Below are positions 5,957 through 12,016 of a DNA stretch of 12,016 nt, piece after piece. The stretch comes from Elusimicrobiales bacterium. Its GTDB lineage: Bacteria > Elusimicrobiota > Elusimicrobia > Elusimicrobiales > Elusimicrobiaceae. Position 1 is the first letter of the stretch, and every line of letters starts with the position of its first letter. Where the stretch lies: assembly GCA_030540535.1 (NCBI GenBank), contig JAUNWB010000011.1, positions 1 to 12,016 on the forward strand, in the 5' to 3' direction. The position numbers and the translations under genes are program-made. The notes beneath the pieces were generated by a model that searched no databases, had not been told where the DNA came from, and was given only the letters and a program-made list of their open reading frames with translations.

Positions 5957-6490
5957 CTAGGGCAGTTCGTACAGGTTGCAGGCGGGACCGTTTAAATAAC
6001 CGGCAACCGTACACTTGCCCGTTCCCGCCGCGCGTCCGCCTAGACTTTTGCACACTTTTTGTGCAGTTTCATTTTCTGTAGGCGCTCCGCAGTAAATAAC
6101 GCCCGGTTTGTCGGAATTATCCAAAAACAGGTGATAACTGTTTACCAGCTTATCTCCGTTAACGGTATATCCCGCTACGTCCATCCATTCCGCCTGGAAG
6201 CCGTGACTGAAAAAATCAAATACATAATTTCCCTTTTTGCAAATGCCCGCACCAATCGATTCGCAATCCGGGATCGAAATATCCAATCCGTCCATCGTGT
6301 CGTTGGGATAAGCTCCGTTGGCCATATAGTAGGCTTCGGCGACTTGTTTCATGGTTTTTACTTGACTCATTACTCCTCCCAAGCGGCTTTTGGCCACCGC
6401 CACCTGATACTGCGGCAGCGCGACGACCGCCAAAATCCCGATAATTAATACGACTACCAATAATTCAATCAGTGTAAATCCCCGCGTCAT
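5957..6490 (-). CDS. Type IV pilin / pseudopilin-like protein
   Basis: This 177-residue prepilin would be processed by prepilin peptidase and inserted in the inner membrane, then assembled into a type IV pilus or a type II secretion/competence pseudopilus. The class III signal is textbook: MTRG, cleavage before Phe5, then FTLIELLVVVLIIG with the conserved Glu at mature position 5, and a single hydrophobic helix to about residue 28. The globular part has six cysteines (76, 84, 134, 147, 160, 171), enough for three disulfides. ATG 6490 is chosen over an upstream in-frame start at 6544 because AGGAG lies five bases before it and the peptide before the cleavage site is then four residues. A structured RNA element lies just upstream. 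It is a lone pilin gene here; the assembly genes must be elsewhere. Confidence 0.93.
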   Translation of the reverse strand: MTRGFTLIELLVVVLIIGILAVVALPQYQVAVAKSRLGGVMSQVKTMKQVAEAYYMANGAYPNDTMDGLDISIPDCESIGAGICKKGNYVFDFFSHGFQAEWMDVAGYTVNGDKLVNSYHLFLDNSDKPGVIYCGAPTENETAQKVCKSLGGRAAGTGKCTVAGYLNGPACNLYELP

Positions 6491-6529
6491 GGGTTCTCCT
6501 ATAGTTGCCCGAGCCCGGAATTTGCATAT

Positions 6530-6687
6530 AAAAAACGGCCGCAAACCCGAGCTAAGCAGAGTAATGCCCGAATAAACAGCCGTAGTTTACCGTCAAAAGA
6601 CGATAAACGTTCGGCGCAAAAGAACCGGGTAATTAGGCCGTTTCTCTTGCGCCTCAAACGACTGTTTTTGAACTCTGCTTATGCGGC
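6530..6687 (-). ncRNA. Unidentified structured RNA: three-way junction ending in a U-run
   Basis: Read on the minus strand, the segment folds by complete complementarity. P1 is 6 bp (6682-6687 with 6538-6543). P2 is a perfect 10 bp (6672-6681 with 6553-6562). P3 is 10 bp (6658-6667 with 6574-6583). Inside are hairpin A of 12 bp (6642-6653 with 6613-6624, 17-base loop) and hairpin B of 10 bp (6599-6608 with 6585-6594, four-base loop). The three non-Watson-Crick positions, one each in P3, A and B, are G-U wobbles on the minus strand but would be A-C mismatches on the plus strand, which assigns the strand. Six U follow two bases after P1 (6530-6535). It could be a stand-alone small RNA or an attenuator leader of the pilin gene, whose ATG is 40 bases further on. 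I do not recognise the family, and conserved motifs of 6S RNA, SRP RNA, tmRNA and RNase P RNA were not seen. Confidence 0.72.
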
Positions 6688-6716
6688 GGAAGTTCCGCCG
6701 CGATTTCAAAAACAGT
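6661..6716. repeat. Nested inverted repeats overlapping the structured RNA
   Basis: A perfect 12-bp inverted repeat (6661-6672 with 6705-6716, arm ACTGTTTTTGAA) encloses a 9-bp one with a one-base spacer (6683-6691 with 6693-6701, arm GCGGCGGAA). The left 12-mer uses the same bases as the 5' strands of P2 and P3 of the RNA, and the 9-mer uses P1, so the two folds exclude each other. Confidence 0.8.
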
Positions 6717-6844
6717 TTAAATGGTGGACGGGCCTTGTGCGGCCCGGAAAAAATCTCCCGTAAATAATCTATTGTCAGTTTAGCATTTTCCCGCTTTTTT
6801 CGGCTATTATTTTATACAATGAACGTATACTTTTTGGAGGGGCT
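6688..6844. other. Non-coding remainder of the pilin-gcvT gap
   Basis: Besides the nested repeats, this holds a 6-bp GC hairpin (6729-6734 with 6741-6746) that has no T-run on the plus strand. An AT-rich patch at about 6803-6822 has -10-like hexamers on both strands (TATACA on plus; TATAAA on minus) and might contain divergent promoters, but no good -35 was found. The gcvT SD (GGAGG, 6836-6840) closes the gap. No coding sequence or known riboswitch was recognised. Confidence 0.5.
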
Positions 6845-7924
6845 ATGACCCACACTGAACTTAAAAAAACGCCGTTGGCCGCCCGTTGCGAAACTGCCGG
6901 CGGTAAAATGGTGGACTTCCACGGCTGGCTTTTGCCCGTACAGTTTGACGGCATTATCGCCGAGCATAAAGCCGTGCGCGAGGCCGCCGGAATGTTTGAC
7001 GTTTCCCACATGGGACAGATTTTTGTAGAAGGCAAAGACGCTTGGCCTTTTTTGCAGTACATCAACTGCAACAATATTAAAAATGCGCCCGCAGCCGGGA
7101 CGTATTCCCATATCCTGACCGAAAAAGGCACCATCATCGACGACGCTATTTCGTTCTGTTTAAACCCGGAAAAATTCCTGGTGGTCGTCAACGCCGCTTG
7201 TATCAGCGAAGATTTTGCGTGGTTCCAAAAACAGGCCGCCAATTTTAACGTGTCCGTACGTAACGAAAGCGCGGACTGGGGCATGATTGCCGTGCAGGGG
7301 CCGCAAGCGTTGGAAAAAGTTTCTAACCTAATTTCGGACGTGCCGGAATTGCCCCGCTTTCATATAAAAGAAATAGAGCTGTTCGGCGCGAAAGGGTACG
7401 TTACCCGCACGGGATATACCGGGGAAGACGGTGTGGAAATTATGCTTCCGGCCGAAAAAATCGGCGACCTGTGGGACGCTCTTTTAAATGTAGGCATAAA
7501 GCCTTGCGGGCTCGGTTCGCGCGACGTACTGCGCCTGGAAGCCGGATACCTTTTAAACGGTGCGGACGCGGACCAAACCCGCACACCGTACGAAGCTAAC
7601 TGCGGGTGGGTGGTAAAGCTCGCCAAAGAAAATTTTGTAGGAAAGGCCGCGCTTGCGGCGCAAAAAGAACAGGGGCTGAAACAAAAACTGACGGCCTTTG
7701 TTTTAAAATCGCCGGGCGTGCCCCGCGCGGAATGTAAAGTCTATTCCGGCGCGGAAGAAATTGGGGTACTCACCAGCGGGACGTATTCGCCTTTGTTCAA
7801 GGGGATTGCCGTGGGATATATTCCGGCGGACGTGCCCGTGGGGAGCGAAGTGGAAATCGAAATACACGGCAAACGGGCCAAGGCCGAAGTGGTCAAAACG
7901 CCCTTTTACAAAAACCGCGTATAA
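6845..7924 (+). CDS. gcvT: Glycine cleavage system T protein (aminomethyltransferase)
   Basis: T protein takes the aminomethyl group from lipoyl-GcvH, passes the methylene to tetrahydrofolate and releases ammonia, in the cytoplasm. At 359 residues it has the normal family length. Visible family blocks are FHGWLLPVQF (25-34), EHKAVREAAGMFDVSHMG (40-57), GTIIDDAI with the conserved acidic pair (D99, D100; one matches the catalytic Asp of known T proteins), TGYTGEDGVEI (189-199) and GLGSRDVLRLEAG. The start is supported by GGAGG four bases before the ATG. It is the first gene of the gcv cluster, 24 bases ahead of gcvH. No glycine riboswitch was recognised in front of it. Confidence 0.96.
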   Translation: MTHTELKKTPLAARCETAGGKMVDFHGWLLPVQFDGIIAEHKAVREAAGMFDVSHMGQIFVEGKDAWPFLQYINCNNIKNAPAAGTYSHILTEKGTIIDDAISFCLNPEKFLVVVNAACISEDFAWFQKQAANFNVSVRNESADWGMIAVQGPQALEKVSNLISDVPELPRFHIKEIELFGAKGYVTRTGYTGEDGVEIMLPAEKIGDLWDALLNVGIKPCGLGSRDVLRLEAGYLLNGADADQTRTPYEANCGWVVKLAKENFVGKAALAAQKEQGLKQKLTAFVLKSPGVPRAECKVYSGAEEIGVLTSGTYSPLFKGIAVGYIPADVPVGSEVEIEIHGKRAKAEVVKTPFYKNRV

Positions 7925-7948
7925 TTAAAATTTAAGGAGAATAAAACT

Positions 7949-8329
7949 ATGCATACCGAAGAAACCAGCCGTTTTGCCAAAACTCACGAATGGGCCCATA
8001 CGGAAGGCGACATCGCCACCGTGGGCATCAGCAACCACGCGCAGGAAGAAATCAGCGACATCGTGTTTGTGGACCTGCCCAAAGTCGGCCAGCAGGTAAC
8101 CGCGGGCCAGAACTGCTGCGTGATTGAATCCGTCAAATCCGCGTCCGAAATTTACGCGCCCGTCAGCGGCGAAATCGTGGAAGTAAACGAAGCCTTAAAC
8201 GCGGACCCGGCTCTTGTAAACCGCGAACCGCACGGCAACGGCTGGCTGTTTAAAATCAAAATGACGGCTCCCGCCGAGTACGAAAACCTGCTCGACCTGT
8301 CCGCCTACAAAGCCACCATCCAAAAATAG
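7949..8329 (+). CDS. gcvH: Glycine cleavage system H protein (lipoyl carrier)
   Basis: This small 126-residue protein carries the lipoyl arm that shuttles the aminomethyl group between P, T and L proteins. The lipoylation motif ESVKSASEIYAPVSG is intact with the acceptor lysine at K63, and the N-terminal THEWAHTEGDIATVGIS and the GNGWLFKIK segment near the C-terminus are typical. AAGGAG lies nine bases before the ATG. A strong intrinsic terminator follows 13 bases after the stop, so gcvT-gcvH may be made in excess over the P subunits. The putative lipoyl-attachment enzyme that would modify K63 is encoded at the end of the same cluster. Confidence 0.97.
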   Translation: MHTEETSRFAKTHEWAHTEGDIATVGISNHAQEEISDIVFVDLPKVGQQVTAGQNCCVIESVKSASEIYAPVSGEIVEVNEALNADPALVNREPHGNGWLFKIKMTAPAEYENLLDLSAYKATIQK

Positions 8330-8342
8330 TTTGTTTGATTCG

Positions 8343-8370
8343 TCCCCCGCTTGCGGGCGGGGGATTTTTT
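8343..8370 (+). terminator. Intrinsic terminator inside the gcv cluster (gcvH-gcvPA)
   Basis: TCCCCCGC (8343-8350) and GCGGGGGA (8357-8364) form an 8-bp stem with a six-base loop, followed directly by six T. It lies between two genes whose products act in the same complex, so it should reduce or condition transcription into gcvPA. Confidence 0.88.
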
Positions 8371-8391
8371 ATATTAAAAGGACTTTTTACC

Positions 8392-9720
8392 ATGTTTATC
8401 CCCAATACTCCCGAAGACCAAAAAGAAATGCTGGCCAAAATTGGCGTTTCATCCGTACGGGATTTATTAAAACAAATTCCGCAGGACCTCTTATACCCGG
8501 CTTTGGACTTGCCCAAGGCTTTGACGGAACAGGAACTCTCCGCCCATATGCACGCGCTGGCGGCCGAAAACAAACCGCTTAAAAATTTTATCGGCGCGGG
8601 TATGTACGAACATTTTATCCCGGCGGCGGTGAACGCGCTTTCTTCCCGCGGGGAATTTTTAACCGCCTACACGCCCTACCAGGCCGAAGCCAGCCAGGGC
8701 ACCCTGCAAACGATTTACGAATTTCAAAGCTGCATTTGCGCGCTGTTTGATATGGATGTGGCTACCGCCTCCCATTACGACGGCGCGACCGCACTCGCCG
8801 AAGCCGTGCTGGCCTCCGTGCGCGTAAACGGCCGCAAAGAAGTGTTAATCCCCGCGGCGCTCCATCCGCATTATAAACAGGTATTAAAAACGTATTCCCG
8901 CCATTTTGAAGGGGTGCAGATTGCCGAGGTTCCGTTCGGCGCAGACGGCGCGCTGGACATAAATGCGCTTAAAGAAAAACTGTCGGATAAAACCGCGTGC
9001 TTTGTCCTCGCGAACCCGAACTTTTTTGGCTCCTTGGAAGATGCTAAGGCCGTTTCCTCCCTCGTACACAATGCGGGCGCGCTGCTTGTTGCTTTGGTGA
9101 ATCCCATTTCTTTAAGCGTGGTGCAAACGCCCGGCTCGTACGATGCGGATTTTGCCGTCGCCGAAGGCCAGCCTTTGGGCAACGCCGTGAACTTTGGCGG
9201 CCCGGGCCTCGGGATCATGACGGCCAAAAAGGCGTATATGCGCCAGCTGCCGGGGCGCATTGTGGGCATTGCCAAGGACCACGACGGAAAACGCGCGTTT
9301 GTGCTGACGCTTCAGGCGCGCGAACAGCATATCCGGCGCGAAAAGGCTTCGTCCAACATCTGCTCGAACGAAGCGTTATGCGCGCTGAACGCGGTTATTT
9401 ATTTGACGCTGCTCGGCCCCAAAGGCCTTAAAGAAGCCGCACTCTTAAACTTGGACCGCGCACACAAATTGGCGGAATTAATCGCCGCCGTGCCCGGGTT
9501 TAAAGTAAAATTTACGGCTCCGTTTTTTAACGAATTTGTCGTCGAATGTCCGGTTTCCGCGCAGACGGCGGTTGAAAAGCTGGCGCAAAAAGGTTTCGGC
9601 GCGGGTTATGCGCTCGGCAAGGACTTTAAAGGCTTGGAAAACTGCCTTTTGGTGTGTGCCACGGAAACCAAAACGCCGGAAGATTTACAAGCGTACGCGG
9701 ACGCGTTAAGGGGGATTTAA
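8392..9720 (+). CDS. gcvPA: Glycine dehydrogenase (decarboxylating) subunit 1
   Basis: This is the N-terminal half of the P protein, which decarboxylates glycine with PLP and transfers the aminomethyl group to GcvH. From ATG 8392 it has 442 residues, the usual length for the split subunit. It shows FIGAGMYEHFIP (66-77), YTPYQAEASQGTLQ (93-106) and ASHYDGATALAEA (126-138). This half lacks the PLP lysine, which is on GcvPB. The start is chosen because AAGGA lies nine bases upstream; an in-frame TTG at 8335 lies before the terminator and would add a peptide encoded by the terminator stem. One base separates its stop from the gcvPB ATG. Confidence 0.96.
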   Translation: MFIPNTPEDQKEMLAKIGVSSVRDLLKQIPQDLLYPALDLPKALTEQELSAHMHALAAENKPLKNFIGAGMYEHFIPAAVNALSSRGEFLTAYTPYQAEASQGTLQTIYEFQSCICALFDMDVATASHYDGATALAEAVLASVRVNGRKEVLIPAALHPHYKQVLKTYSRHFEGVQIAEVPFGADGALDINALKEKLSDKTACFVLANPNFFGSLEDAKAVSSLVHNAGALLVALVNPISLSVVQTPGSYDADFAVAEGQPLGNAVNFGGPGLGIMTAKKAYMRQLPGRIVGIAKDHDGKRAFVLTLQAREQHIRREKASSNICSNEALCALNAVIYLTLLGPKGLKEAALLNLDRAHKLAELIAAVPGFKVKFTAPFFNEFVVECPVSAQTAVEKLAQKGFGAGYALGKDFKGLENCLLVCATETKTPEDLQAYADALRGI

Positions 9721-9721
9721 T

Positions 9722-11170
9722 ATGGAAGAAATTTTGAAACATAACGAGCTTTCGATTGAAAAGTCCCGCCCCGGCCGCCGCGGCGTACAATTTATCAAAA
9801 CGCAGGCGAAAGCGGAGGATTATCTGCCCGCTTCTTACCTGCGCGGGAACGAACCGCGTCTGCCGGAAATGAGCGAGTTCGACGCGGTGCGCCACTTTAC
9901 GCGCCTGTCGCAGCTTAACTATTGCTTGGACGGCGAGTTTTATCCGCTGGGTTCCTGCACCATGAAGTATAACCCCAAAGCGTACGACACGTTGTCCGCC
10001 CTGGAACCGTTCGCCGCCGCGCACCCGTTTGCGCCGGAAGAAGCGGTGCAGGGCACGCTGCACGCGATGTACGAAATGCAGGAACTTCTTAAAAAAGTGA
10101 CGGGTCTTGCCGCGTTTACGCTTCAGCCCGCCGCAGGCGCGCACGGAGAGCTGACGGGTATTTTAACCGTCCGCGCGTATCACGATGCGAAAAAAGATTT
10201 TGCCCGCACCGAAGTAATCGTGCCCGATACGGCGCACGGCACCAATCCGGCCACGGCCAACATGGCGGGTTACACGGTGGTAAACATTAAGTCCGCCGCC
10301 GATGGATGTGTGGATAACGAGGCGCTTCAAAACGCGCTGTCCGAACGCACCGCCGCCGTCATGCTGACGGTGCCCAACACGGTGGGGCTGTTTGAAAAAG
10401 ACATCCGCGAAATTGCGGACATGGTTCACAAAGCCGGGGCTCTTTTGTACATGGACGGAGCCAATTTTAACGCGCTTATCGGTCTGGCCAAGCCGGCAGA
10501 CTTTGGCGTGGACGTAATGCACCTTAACTTGCACAAGACGTTTGCCGCTCCGCACGGCGGCGGCGGACCCGGTTCCGGCCCGGTGGGTGCGGCCGCGCAT
10601 GTCGCTCCGTTCCTGCCCAAACCGATGGCGGAATTAAAAGACGGCAAATATACCCTGTCCGGCGAAATGCCCCAAAGTTTGGGCAAAATGAAAGCGTTTT
10701 ACGGCAATATGGCCGTGGTGCTTCGCGGGTACTGCTATTTGCGCCAGTTTGACGGCGAAACGTTAAAACGCATCGCCGAAAACGCGGTGCTGAACGCCAA
10801 CTACGTCCGCGCTTGCTTAAAAGGCAAATTTAACGCGTTTTTCGACCGCGTGTGTATGCACGAATGCGTGGTAAACGTGGACCCGCACCAAATGAACGGC
10901 GTTCACACGTCCGATGTGGCCAAACGGCTGTTGGATTACGGGTTCTATGCGCCGACTATTTACTTCCCGCTTATCGTGCCCGAAGCCATGATGATTGAGC
11001 CGACGGAAACCGAAAGCAAGCAAAGTTTGGACGCGTTTATTGCCGCGCTGGAAGCCATTTATAACGAAATCCAGACGGAGCCGGACGCGGTGAAAGGCGC
11101 GCCGCACGGGCAGTGTGTGGGGCGGATTGATGAGGTGTCGGCCGCCCGACAGCCCAACTTGAAGTGGTGA
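9722..11170 (+). CDS. gcvPB: Glycine dehydrogenase (decarboxylating) subunit 2
   Basis: This is the PLP-binding half of the split P protein, 482 residues. The Schiff-base lysine is K272 in LNLHKTFAAPHGGGGPGSGP. Other family blocks are YPLGSCTMKYNPK (74-86), AAGAHGE and HGTNPATANMAGY. It acts with GcvPA as a heterotetramer in known split systems. Its start overlaps no gene but is one base after the gcvPA stop, with AAGGGGG at the end of gcvPA as the likely SD, so the two are translationally linked. A weak stem (11176-11180 with 11193-11197) follows, but no strong terminator. Confidence 0.97.
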   Translation: MEEILKHNELSIEKSRPGRRGVQFIKTQAKAEDYLPASYLRGNEPRLPEMSEFDAVRHFTRLSQLNYCLDGEFYPLGSCTMKYNPKAYDTLSALEPFAAAHPFAPEEAVQGTLHAMYEMQELLKKVTGLAAFTLQPAAGAHGELTGILTVRAYHDAKKDFARTEVIVPDTAHGTNPATANMAGYTVVNIKSAADGCVDNEALQNALSERTAAVMLTVPNTVGLFEKDIREIADMVHKAGALLYMDGANFNALIGLAKPADFGVDVMHLNLHKTFAAPHGGGGPGSGPVGAAAHVAPFLPKPMAELKDGKYTLSGEMPQSLGKMKAFYGNMAVVLRGYCYLRQFDGETLKRIAENAVLNANYVRACLKGKFNAFFDRVCMHECVVNVDPHQMNGVHTSDVAKRLLDYGFYAPTIYFPLIVPEAMMIEPTETESKQSLDAFIAALEAIYNEIQTEPDAVKGAPHGQCVGRIDEVSAARQPNLKW

Positions 11171-11215
11171 GATTAACGGCGTTTTTTCGTAAGCCGTGAA
11201 TTTTGACGGGCAACT

Positions 11216-11341
11216 ATTTCCCAAATTTGGCTAACTTTGCGTTCCCTTACCTCTCGGCGTACCTAACAGTACTTCCTCGGGCAACTGGCAACGCAAATTT
11301 AGTTCAAATTTGGGAAATCAGCCAATATGCCGCAAAGTTAG
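11216..11341. repeat. Interlocked inverted-repeat element between gcvPB and the lipoate ligase gene
   Basis: Arm A (11216-11229) and A' (11305-11318) are a perfect 14-bp inverted repeat, each containing the palindrome CAAATTTG. Inside, arm B (11231-11243) pairs with B'' (11290-11302), 12 of 13 positions. An outer copy B' (11331-11341, CGCAAAGTTAG) is perfectly complementary to the first 11 bases of B. The order A-B-B''-A'-B' allows either one long nested hairpin or a crossing (pseudoknot-like) A/A' + B/B' pairing. The 46-base centre (11244-11289) has no ORF of note. It could be an RNA switch, a multi-site protein-binding region or a small repeat element. Confidence 0.75.
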
Positions 11342-11377
11342 TCTGTTTGTCGCGGCGTCATTTTATAGGGCTGTAGC

Positions 11378-12016
11378 ATGGAATCTCGCTACATTAAAAT
11401 AGATTTTTCCGCTAAAAATATGAATCTGCTTGTTTCCACTCCGCCTTTAAACGTGTTTGAACATATGGCGTTTGACGAACAAACCGTCCGCCTGCGTCCG
11501 TCTGCCGTTACCCTGCGGTTTTACCGCTGGACGGACGGCCCCGCCGTCACGTTCGGCTATGCCCAGTTTTTAAGCGAGGTGGACCGCGCGCTTGCGGCGC
11601 AGCATTTTACCGGCCCGCGCGTGCGCCGTCCGACGGGCGGCGGCGTGGTGTTTCATACGGACGATTTAACCTTTTCGCTTGTGTTCCCGTCTGCGGGCCG
11701 GCCGGCCGATATTTACAAACGGTTTCACGCTTGTATTTTGGGCGAACTGGCCAGGGTCGGCGCCAAAGGCCGCGCGTTTGATAAAACGCTCCCCGCTTCC
11801 GCCTATGCGCCCAGCGTAAACCACACGGCCAGCGCGTGTTTTGTAAACCCGGTGGAAAATGACCTGCTGGCCGAAGACGGACATAAAATTTTGGGGGGAG
11901 CCTTGCGGCGTTTCGGTTCATGCGTGTTGTACCAGGGTTCTTTGCAGCTGCCCGGTGCGCGGACCAGTCCCGCTTACAAACACGCCGTGACGGAAGCGGT
12001 GCGTGCGTTTTTGGCG
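11378..12016 (+). CDS. Lipoate-protein ligase / octanoyltransferase family protein (3' end outside window)
   Basis: The frame stays open to the window edge, giving 213 residues of a cytoplasmic BPL/LPL-fold enzyme that attaches lipoate or octanoate to carrier proteins; here the obvious acceptor is GcvH. Visible features are LRFYRWTDGPAVTFGYAQ (46-63), the signature RRPTGGGVVFHTDDLTFS (83-100), ACF (153-155) and HKILGGALRR (169-178), then LYQGSL. K170 matches the conserved active lysine. C154 sits where LipM octanoyltransferases have their cysteine nucleophile, so a transferase (octanoyl-ACP donor) is as plausible as an ATP-dependent ligase. ATG 11378 has only a weak SD (TAGGG). ATG 11420 is an alternative that removes 14 poorly conserved residues. 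It ends the gcv cluster, 207 bases after gcvPB. Confidence 0.9.
   Translation, partial: MESRYIKIDFSAKNMNLLVSTPPLNVFEHMAFDEQTVRLRPSAVTLRFYRWTDGPAVTFGYAQFLSEVDRALAAQHFTGPRVRRPTGGGVVFHTDDLTFSLVFPSAGRPADIYKRFHACILGELARVGAKGRAFDKTLPASAYAPSVNHTASACFVNPVENDLLAEDGHKILGGALRRFGSCVLYQGSLQLPGARTSPAYKHAVTEAVRAFLA

Follow-up and report, generated by a model that had tools for sequence, protein, structure and literature searches.

The 12,016 nt stretch of DNA analysed here (the window) carries on its minus strand, ahead of a gene for a type IV pilin-like protein, an RNA leader of about 240 nt (6530-6771) that is probably a cis-acting transcription attenuator of this pilin gene. The leader is one copy of a multi-copy RNA family of gut Elusimicrobiota without an Rfam entry, and a self-complementary loop in one of its hairpins is probably its sensor. 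The gene behind it (5957-6490, minus strand) encodes a protein of 177 amino acids, matches PF07963 (N_methyl) at 6416-6484 on the minus strand and has the Shine-Dalgarno sequence AGGAG; its start codon lies about 40 nt behind the U tract of the leader. The leader was delimited by comparison with sets of 103 and 155 distinct copies; this U tract was taken as the 3' limit of the RNA, while the 5' limit around 6771 was placed from a -10-like site.

In a preliminary description of the locus, a structured RNA had been proposed on the minus strand of 6530-6687, either as a new small RNA or as a pilin leader element. Folding of this strand gave -68.1 kcal/mol (z -6.9), a stability reached by none of 200 dinucleotide shuffles; the plus strand folded at -56.4 kcal/mol (z -5.0 versus dinucleotide shuffles). 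A structured RNA on this strand and a pilin leader element are both supported. A free-standing small RNA with one fold is not: two exclusive folds are predicted for the full leader, the three-way junction being one of them, and the functional unit starts further upstream, beyond 6687, with a segment termed U at 6702-6716 and a start perhaps near 6771.

Four of the five helices described earlier were recovered. P1 (10 bp) is formed by TAAGCAGAGT (6672-6681) and ACTCTGCTTA (6553-6562) and was identified from inverted repeats, the alignment and covariation. P2 (10 bp) joins segment A, its 5' strand with flank (TCAAAAACAGTCGT, 6658-6671, from the alignment and own-partner pairing tests), to segment B, its 3' strand (ACGGCTGTTT, 6574-6583, from pairing tests). 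The hairpins P3 (11+3 bp, 6613-6653; fold, inverted repeat and covariation) and P4 (10 bp, 6585-6608; fold and covariation) lie between these strands. In contrast, an outer helix of 6 bp (6682-6687 with 6538-6543) was not common to the folds of the copies, which were looked at and not counted. The three G-U pairs described for the minus strand are present in the predicted fold, one each in P2, P3 and P4. A GC stem followed by six U (6530-6535) also exists. It makes up the 3' half of a terminator hairpin, and the 3' strand of P2 supplies the 5' half; the whole hairpin with its U tract spans 6530-6583 and folds at -22.5 kcal/mol in the window copy. No core of housekeeping RNAs or common riboswitches had been noticed in the RNA, and a search of the window with 4227 Rfam models at gathering cut-offs returned no matches. 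At a lax threshold, four chance-level matches were obtained in 6400-6860 (best E 0.43).

To characterize the family, an alignment (A1) of 24 copies similar to the window copy was built, in which 30 of 42 predicted pairs show two-sided changes. The covariance model R1 was made from A1 and is thus trained on copies like that of the window. R1 detected five copies in the window's own genome (G000) and matched 31 of 37 genomes of the same genus (own genome included), whereas in another family of the order it had no match among 24 genomes. Among 340 genomes of the phylum 90 were matched: the window's genus accounts for 60, a second genus of the family for 18 and a distant family (f21) for 12; as nine candidates per genome were scored in this survey, the copy numbers obtained are minima. 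Deeper scoring of 13 genomes revealed 93 copies in one 1.1-Mb assembly (G026), 25 in G317, 20 in G311 and 1 to 10 in the others. A pattern scan of named genomes yielded 81 stretches, and the 80 listed loci were 77 with names in Elusimicrobi- or Avelusimicrobium and three from 'uncultured bacterium'. In listings and abstract openings of the open-licence literature on Elusimicrobiota RNA and pilins and on kissing attenuation, no report of this leader element was found.

P1, P3 and P4 covary strongly. Of 5075 cells in 107 matches, 103 of them distinct, 93.3 percent paired, and among the 103 distinct copies two-sided changes were detected in 40 of 50 pairs, namely in all pairs of P1, P3 and P4 and in none of the ten of P2. 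The absence of compensatory changes in homologues, which would have spoken against the RNA, is thereby excluded. The covariation score for these copies was 0.632, compared with 0.228 for shuffled and 0.10-0.12 for slid controls. Since 77 of the 100 loci searched for this set came from a pattern that fixed the P3 loop, B and C, the invariance of these parts among the 103 copies is partly by construction; P2 covaries in copies found without the pattern. A set of 155 distinct copies was therefore collected by the model alone, from contigs of G026, f21, G032 and the second genus and from single loci. P1 differs from P2, P3 and P4 in carrying all four Watson-Crick pairs at nearly every position with hardly any G-U.

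To understand how the strands of P2 are shared, the pairing of four segments was analysed. Segment U (ACTGTTTTTGAAATC, 6702-6716; inverted repeat I1) is conserved, lies about 40-79 nt upstream of A in the copies and is complementary to A, of which it is the partner in the OFF fold. In the three-way junction A pairs with B. The alternative partner of B is C, which repeats the core of A and has a run of T behind it. When each segment was paired with its own partner or with permuted partners from the 103 copies, the duplex energies were -13.79 versus -13.21 for U:A and -18.21 versus -15.32 for B:C (0 of 2000 permutations each). Within G026 alone (54 copies), own-partner U:A, A:B and B:C duplexes all surpassed permuted ones (0 of 5000 each), and in f21 (40 copies) 5, 3 and 0 of 5000 permutations, respectively, were as good, these controls taking no account of the relatedness of the copies. 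Single copies show the same behavior: the window's pair TTTTTGAA/TTCAAAAA (U versus A) deviates from the consensus on both sides, and in L153 all four segments are altered in step.

Constrained folding gave fairly close mean energies over the 103 copies, of -88.6 for the OFF fold (U:A plus terminator) and -83.2 for the ON fold (A:B), and for the window leader of -88.9 and -78.1. In unconstrained folding, the lowest-energy structure was OFF with the terminator in 92 of the 103 copies and ON in 11. The terminator hairpin has a mean energy of -24.5 kcal/mol over these copies, and a run of at least four T was present within 35 nt of the core end in 53/54 copies of G026 and 40/40 of f21; in several copies of G317 and G318 the U tract is interrupted (GTTATT). 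As judged from these predicted pairings, the leader has the anatomy of a transcription attenuator, in which U:A, A:B and B:C are mutually exclusive and all covary among the paralogues of one genome. Both a hairpin with a U tract before the gene and an exclusive antiterminator helix with covariation were found, as they are for attenuators with intrinsic terminators.

Attenuators of the trp type and of riboswitches have four segments that pair alternatively (1:2, 2:3, 3:4) and a terminal U tract, and the leader resembles them in both respects. Unlike in trp-type attenuators, no leader peptide of regulatory codons was seen by eye. Upstream of U, 42 of 99 leaders carry an AGGAGG-like site (counted without a chance control), with no evident frame by eye.

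The most unusual part of the leader, which the preliminary description did not mention, is the loop of P3. In the window it is a loop of 9 nt (2+6+1) that holds the self-complementary sequence TAATTA (6630-6635, minus strand), predicted from the loop survey and control loops to be a kissing loop. Among the 155 model-found copies, loops of 9 nt (73), 7 nt (28), 10 nt (17), 11 nt (14) and 8 nt (5) were observed besides 18 shorter ones. A 6-nt palindrome was present in 104 of the 109 loops of at least 8 nt, the exceptions being four loops of G311 and one ACTGATCCC (GATC only). The palindromes were TAATTA (52, and a further 7 scored as ATTAAT), TTATAA (17), TCATGA (14), TTCGAA (8) and TTGCAA (6), with TAATTA possibly over-represented because R1 was trained on copies like the window's. 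When only unique loops of at least 8 nt were considered, 20 of 23 contained a 6-nt palindrome compared with 1.9 in shuffles (maximum 8 in 2000). Of the 28 loops of 7 nt, 23 had a palindrome of 4 nt (GATC, AGCT, GTAC, TGCA and others) at the third position, with four exceptions from G317 and one from G318; for unique 7-nt loops this was 10 of 12, and 3.5 in shuffles (maximum 9). The test did not cover the 18 loops under 7 nt, 12 of which hold a 4-mer palindrome. The commonest layouts were 2+6+1 (70/155), which is also the layout of the HIV-1 DIS loop, and 2+4+1 (18). In control loops the feature was rare or absent: the P4 loop had a 4-mer palindrome in 5 of 83 unique loops and a 6-mer in neither of two long ones, and the loops of the hairpins Pb and Pc had palindromes in 0/8 long loops and 0/4 loops of 7 nt.

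Self-complementarity of the P3 loop is kept despite sequence change, as expected of a kissing-loop dimer. Since adjacent bases cannot pair inside one loop, a second molecule is the natural partner of the palindrome. A partner within the same RNA is disfavoured, as recurrence of the palindrome in its own leader was not above chance (10 in 109 leaders versus 8.6 with shuffled labels, sd 2.4). Between the class of the palindrome and the remainder of the element there is only a weak link: among 54 nearest neighbours, 11 agree in class where 5.4 are expected, and 58 of 2000 shuffles were as high. This suggests that class changes are many or that classes are shuffled between copies. Duplex energies were -0.4 kcal/mol for TAATTA and TTATAA, -1.8 for GATC and -5.0 for TCATGA, so kissing of the weak TAATTA and TTATAA loops would need pre-organisation of the loop or a high local concentration. 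A six-nucleotide palindrome in a hairpin loop is likewise described for the HIV-1 DIS and other palindromic kissing loops (PMC7357161); unlike the DIS, the P3 loop belongs to a bacterial mRNA leader, its palindromes are mostly weak and vary between copies, and it is coupled to an attenuator. Palindromic loops that kiss, as is predicted here, are also described for the guanidine-II riboswitch (PMC7357161). That RNA differs from the leader in its two-nucleotide palindrome and in binding a ligand, and no Rfam riboswitch model matches the leader.

The upstream junction, the shared strand and the terminator together make up the plan of a transcriptional riboswitch, and this plan is found in the leader. 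A small molecule could bind one of the three-way junctions and set A:B against U:A, with the palindrome being secondary. Cyclic di-GMP would suit this role, as GGDEF proteins are present in 61 of 61 genomes of the genus searched and regulated genes for pili and polysaccharide would fit it. A riboswitch nevertheless seems unlikely to us. Apart from the lack of an Rfam match, the upstream junction has no strict unpaired core among the folds listed, and the window copy has a single hairpin between U and P1 (6683-6701; inverted repeat I8, folds) where other copies have two, Pb and Pc. Some unpaired bases are conserved in the 3' junction, partly through the selection of loci. Furthermore, in copies that were not chosen by pattern the P3 loop varies and yet stays palindromic, which is unexpected of a binding pocket. 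A strictly conserved P3 loop acting as ligand pocket had been suggested by the 103 copies and was dropped when this variation was seen in the model-found copies.

Attenuators of gene sets are often under protein control, and an RNA-binding protein, possibly a homodimer that reads the P3 loop, could stabilise one of the folds. We consider this rather improbable, as at least eleven different palindromes make a single sequence-reading protein unlikely, and no candidate RNA-binding protein for the leader was found here. A single NusG-type protein was identified in the window's assembly (85 percent complete), which speaks against this control and led us to reject a specialised NusG/RfaH antiterminator.

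The number of copies (93 in G026), the near-perfect arms of P1 and the palindromes near the centre of P3 would also suit an element that acts at the DNA level and shuffles pilin genes, its inverted repeats and palindromes being used for recombination or by a mobile element. P1 is almost free of G-U pairs (31 of 1484 paired cells) though A-U pairs abound in it; this helix forms only in the ON fold. Against a DNA element, G-U pairing is frequent in P2, P3 and P4, at about 10 percent of the paired cells, as expected of RNA, and the exclusive helices covary. Moreover, copies followed by a reading frame keep one orientation and one position ahead of the start codon, the palindromes lie mostly off-centre in the loop, and the exact pattern was absent from viral contigs. 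Such an element is therefore very improbable.

For the attenuator, the following sequence of events is proposed. Transcription would begin upstream of U. In the OFF fold, pairing of U with A would leave B free for C, and an intrinsic terminator would form ahead of the start codon of the pilin gene. The ON fold would have A paired with B inside the three-way junction (P2 and the hairpins P3 and P4, closed by P1), which would disrupt the terminator and let the polymerase reach the pilin gene. P3 would stand in both folds, and its exposed loop could kiss the same loop of another leader RNA. Kissing between leaders is the most likely input of the switch; nascent transcripts could make this contact with each other or with leaders that the terminator has released. 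As P3 is common to both folds, there is no evident way for kissing to tip the balance. From the sequences we infer that transcription terminates, that the RNAs dimerise in the cell and in which direction the switch acts.

A comparable decision is described for the antisense attenuator of the Staphylococcus plasmid pT181, where a loop-loop kiss decides between exclusive antiterminator and terminator folds (PMC4878617), and the leader would share both the exclusive folds and the decisive kiss. It differs in being chromosomal and in having many copies ahead of pilin genes. Whereas pT181 uses a separate antisense RNA, the P3 loop is complementary to itself, and the leader would be its own antisense. 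We tentatively suggest, as a possibility that is doubtful at present, that leaders regulate each other in trans via their P3 loops, with terminator-released leaders acting as antisense and pilin genes of the same palindrome forming one cross-talking group. If so, a genome like G026, in which twelve palindrome classes were found among 54 sampled copies, would possess a network made of RNA alone by which pilin expression is counted or excluded. For attenuation by self-kissing leaders the family would provide a natural case, and its ready-made loop classes could serve RNA circuits.

To see which genes follow the leaders, reading frames and Pfam matches downstream were determined. Behind 95 of the 103 copies, a frame of 60 or more codons begins no more than 230 nt away; for the remaining eight, the sequence that follows is shorter than 230 nt in five and longer in three. 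The median distance from U tract to start codon was 40 nt (89 of the 95 copies, in which the tract was found). The 95 genes are often pilins or surface-polysaccharide genes: by Pfam there are 55 N_methyl pilins, 10 glycosyltransferase 2, 3 pyruvyl transferase, 3 outer-membrane barrel and 2 each of EcoRI methylase, rhamnan synthesis, nuclease-like and TRL, besides single others. By motif search, a pilin motif is present behind all 54 sampled copies (of 93) in G026. In f21, 29 of 40 copies have a frame, 11 of these with a pilin motif, and 11 of 40 have no frame in reach. An RNA family without an Rfam entry is thus attached to very large pilin gene sets: PF07963 matches number 146 in G026, at least 150 in G032 and 35-125 in nine others of 11 genomes of the genus. 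For a gut bacterium controlling dozens of surface pilins, the leader offers a mechanism that can be tested cheaply. The window's genome has 72 PF07963 matches, four of which adjoin a leader element.

Upstream of other pilin genes of this genome another promoter is frequent, TTGACCCG-T(10-12)-GATAACATGGGGATAA, whose -35 and -10 elements are separated by a homopolymeric T tract; it is a candidate phase-variable promoter. It was present in 12 of 19 sampled upstream regions (L260-L263, L265, L268-L271, L273, L275 and L276). The T10 form of the pattern occurs 35 times in the window's own genome; of 37 genomes searched 11 contain it, each of them from the window's genus.

Upstream of the leader, a -10-like site (TGCTAAACT, 6778-6786, minus strand) resembles TGCTATACT/TTATACT of other copies and was graded weak because a sigma-70 scan did not report it. 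Among 54 copies of G026, 24 have a -10-like hexamer whose end lies 16-17 nt ahead of U and 14 have one at another position; in 16 none was found. The window copy belongs to a long variant whose 5' part contains a GC-rich hairpin (6729-6747, seen in the sequence) with GGGAGA just before it; an AGGAGG-like site and a hairpin also occur in other long leaders. In the long leaders L095, L097, L115 and L130, AGGAG upstream of U precedes ATGTAG or ATGTAA, in which a stop codon comes right after the start. At L161 (1501-1627 and downstream) a second leader-like unit (U, P1, A) appears by eye to lie in tandem, and the gene behind the tandem units resembles the EcoRI-methylase genes of L107. Divergent from the leader, the plus strand of the window (6845-12016) carries an apparent glycine-cleavage operon, named from translations, with gcvT, gcvH, two gcvP halves and a lipoate ligase-like gene.
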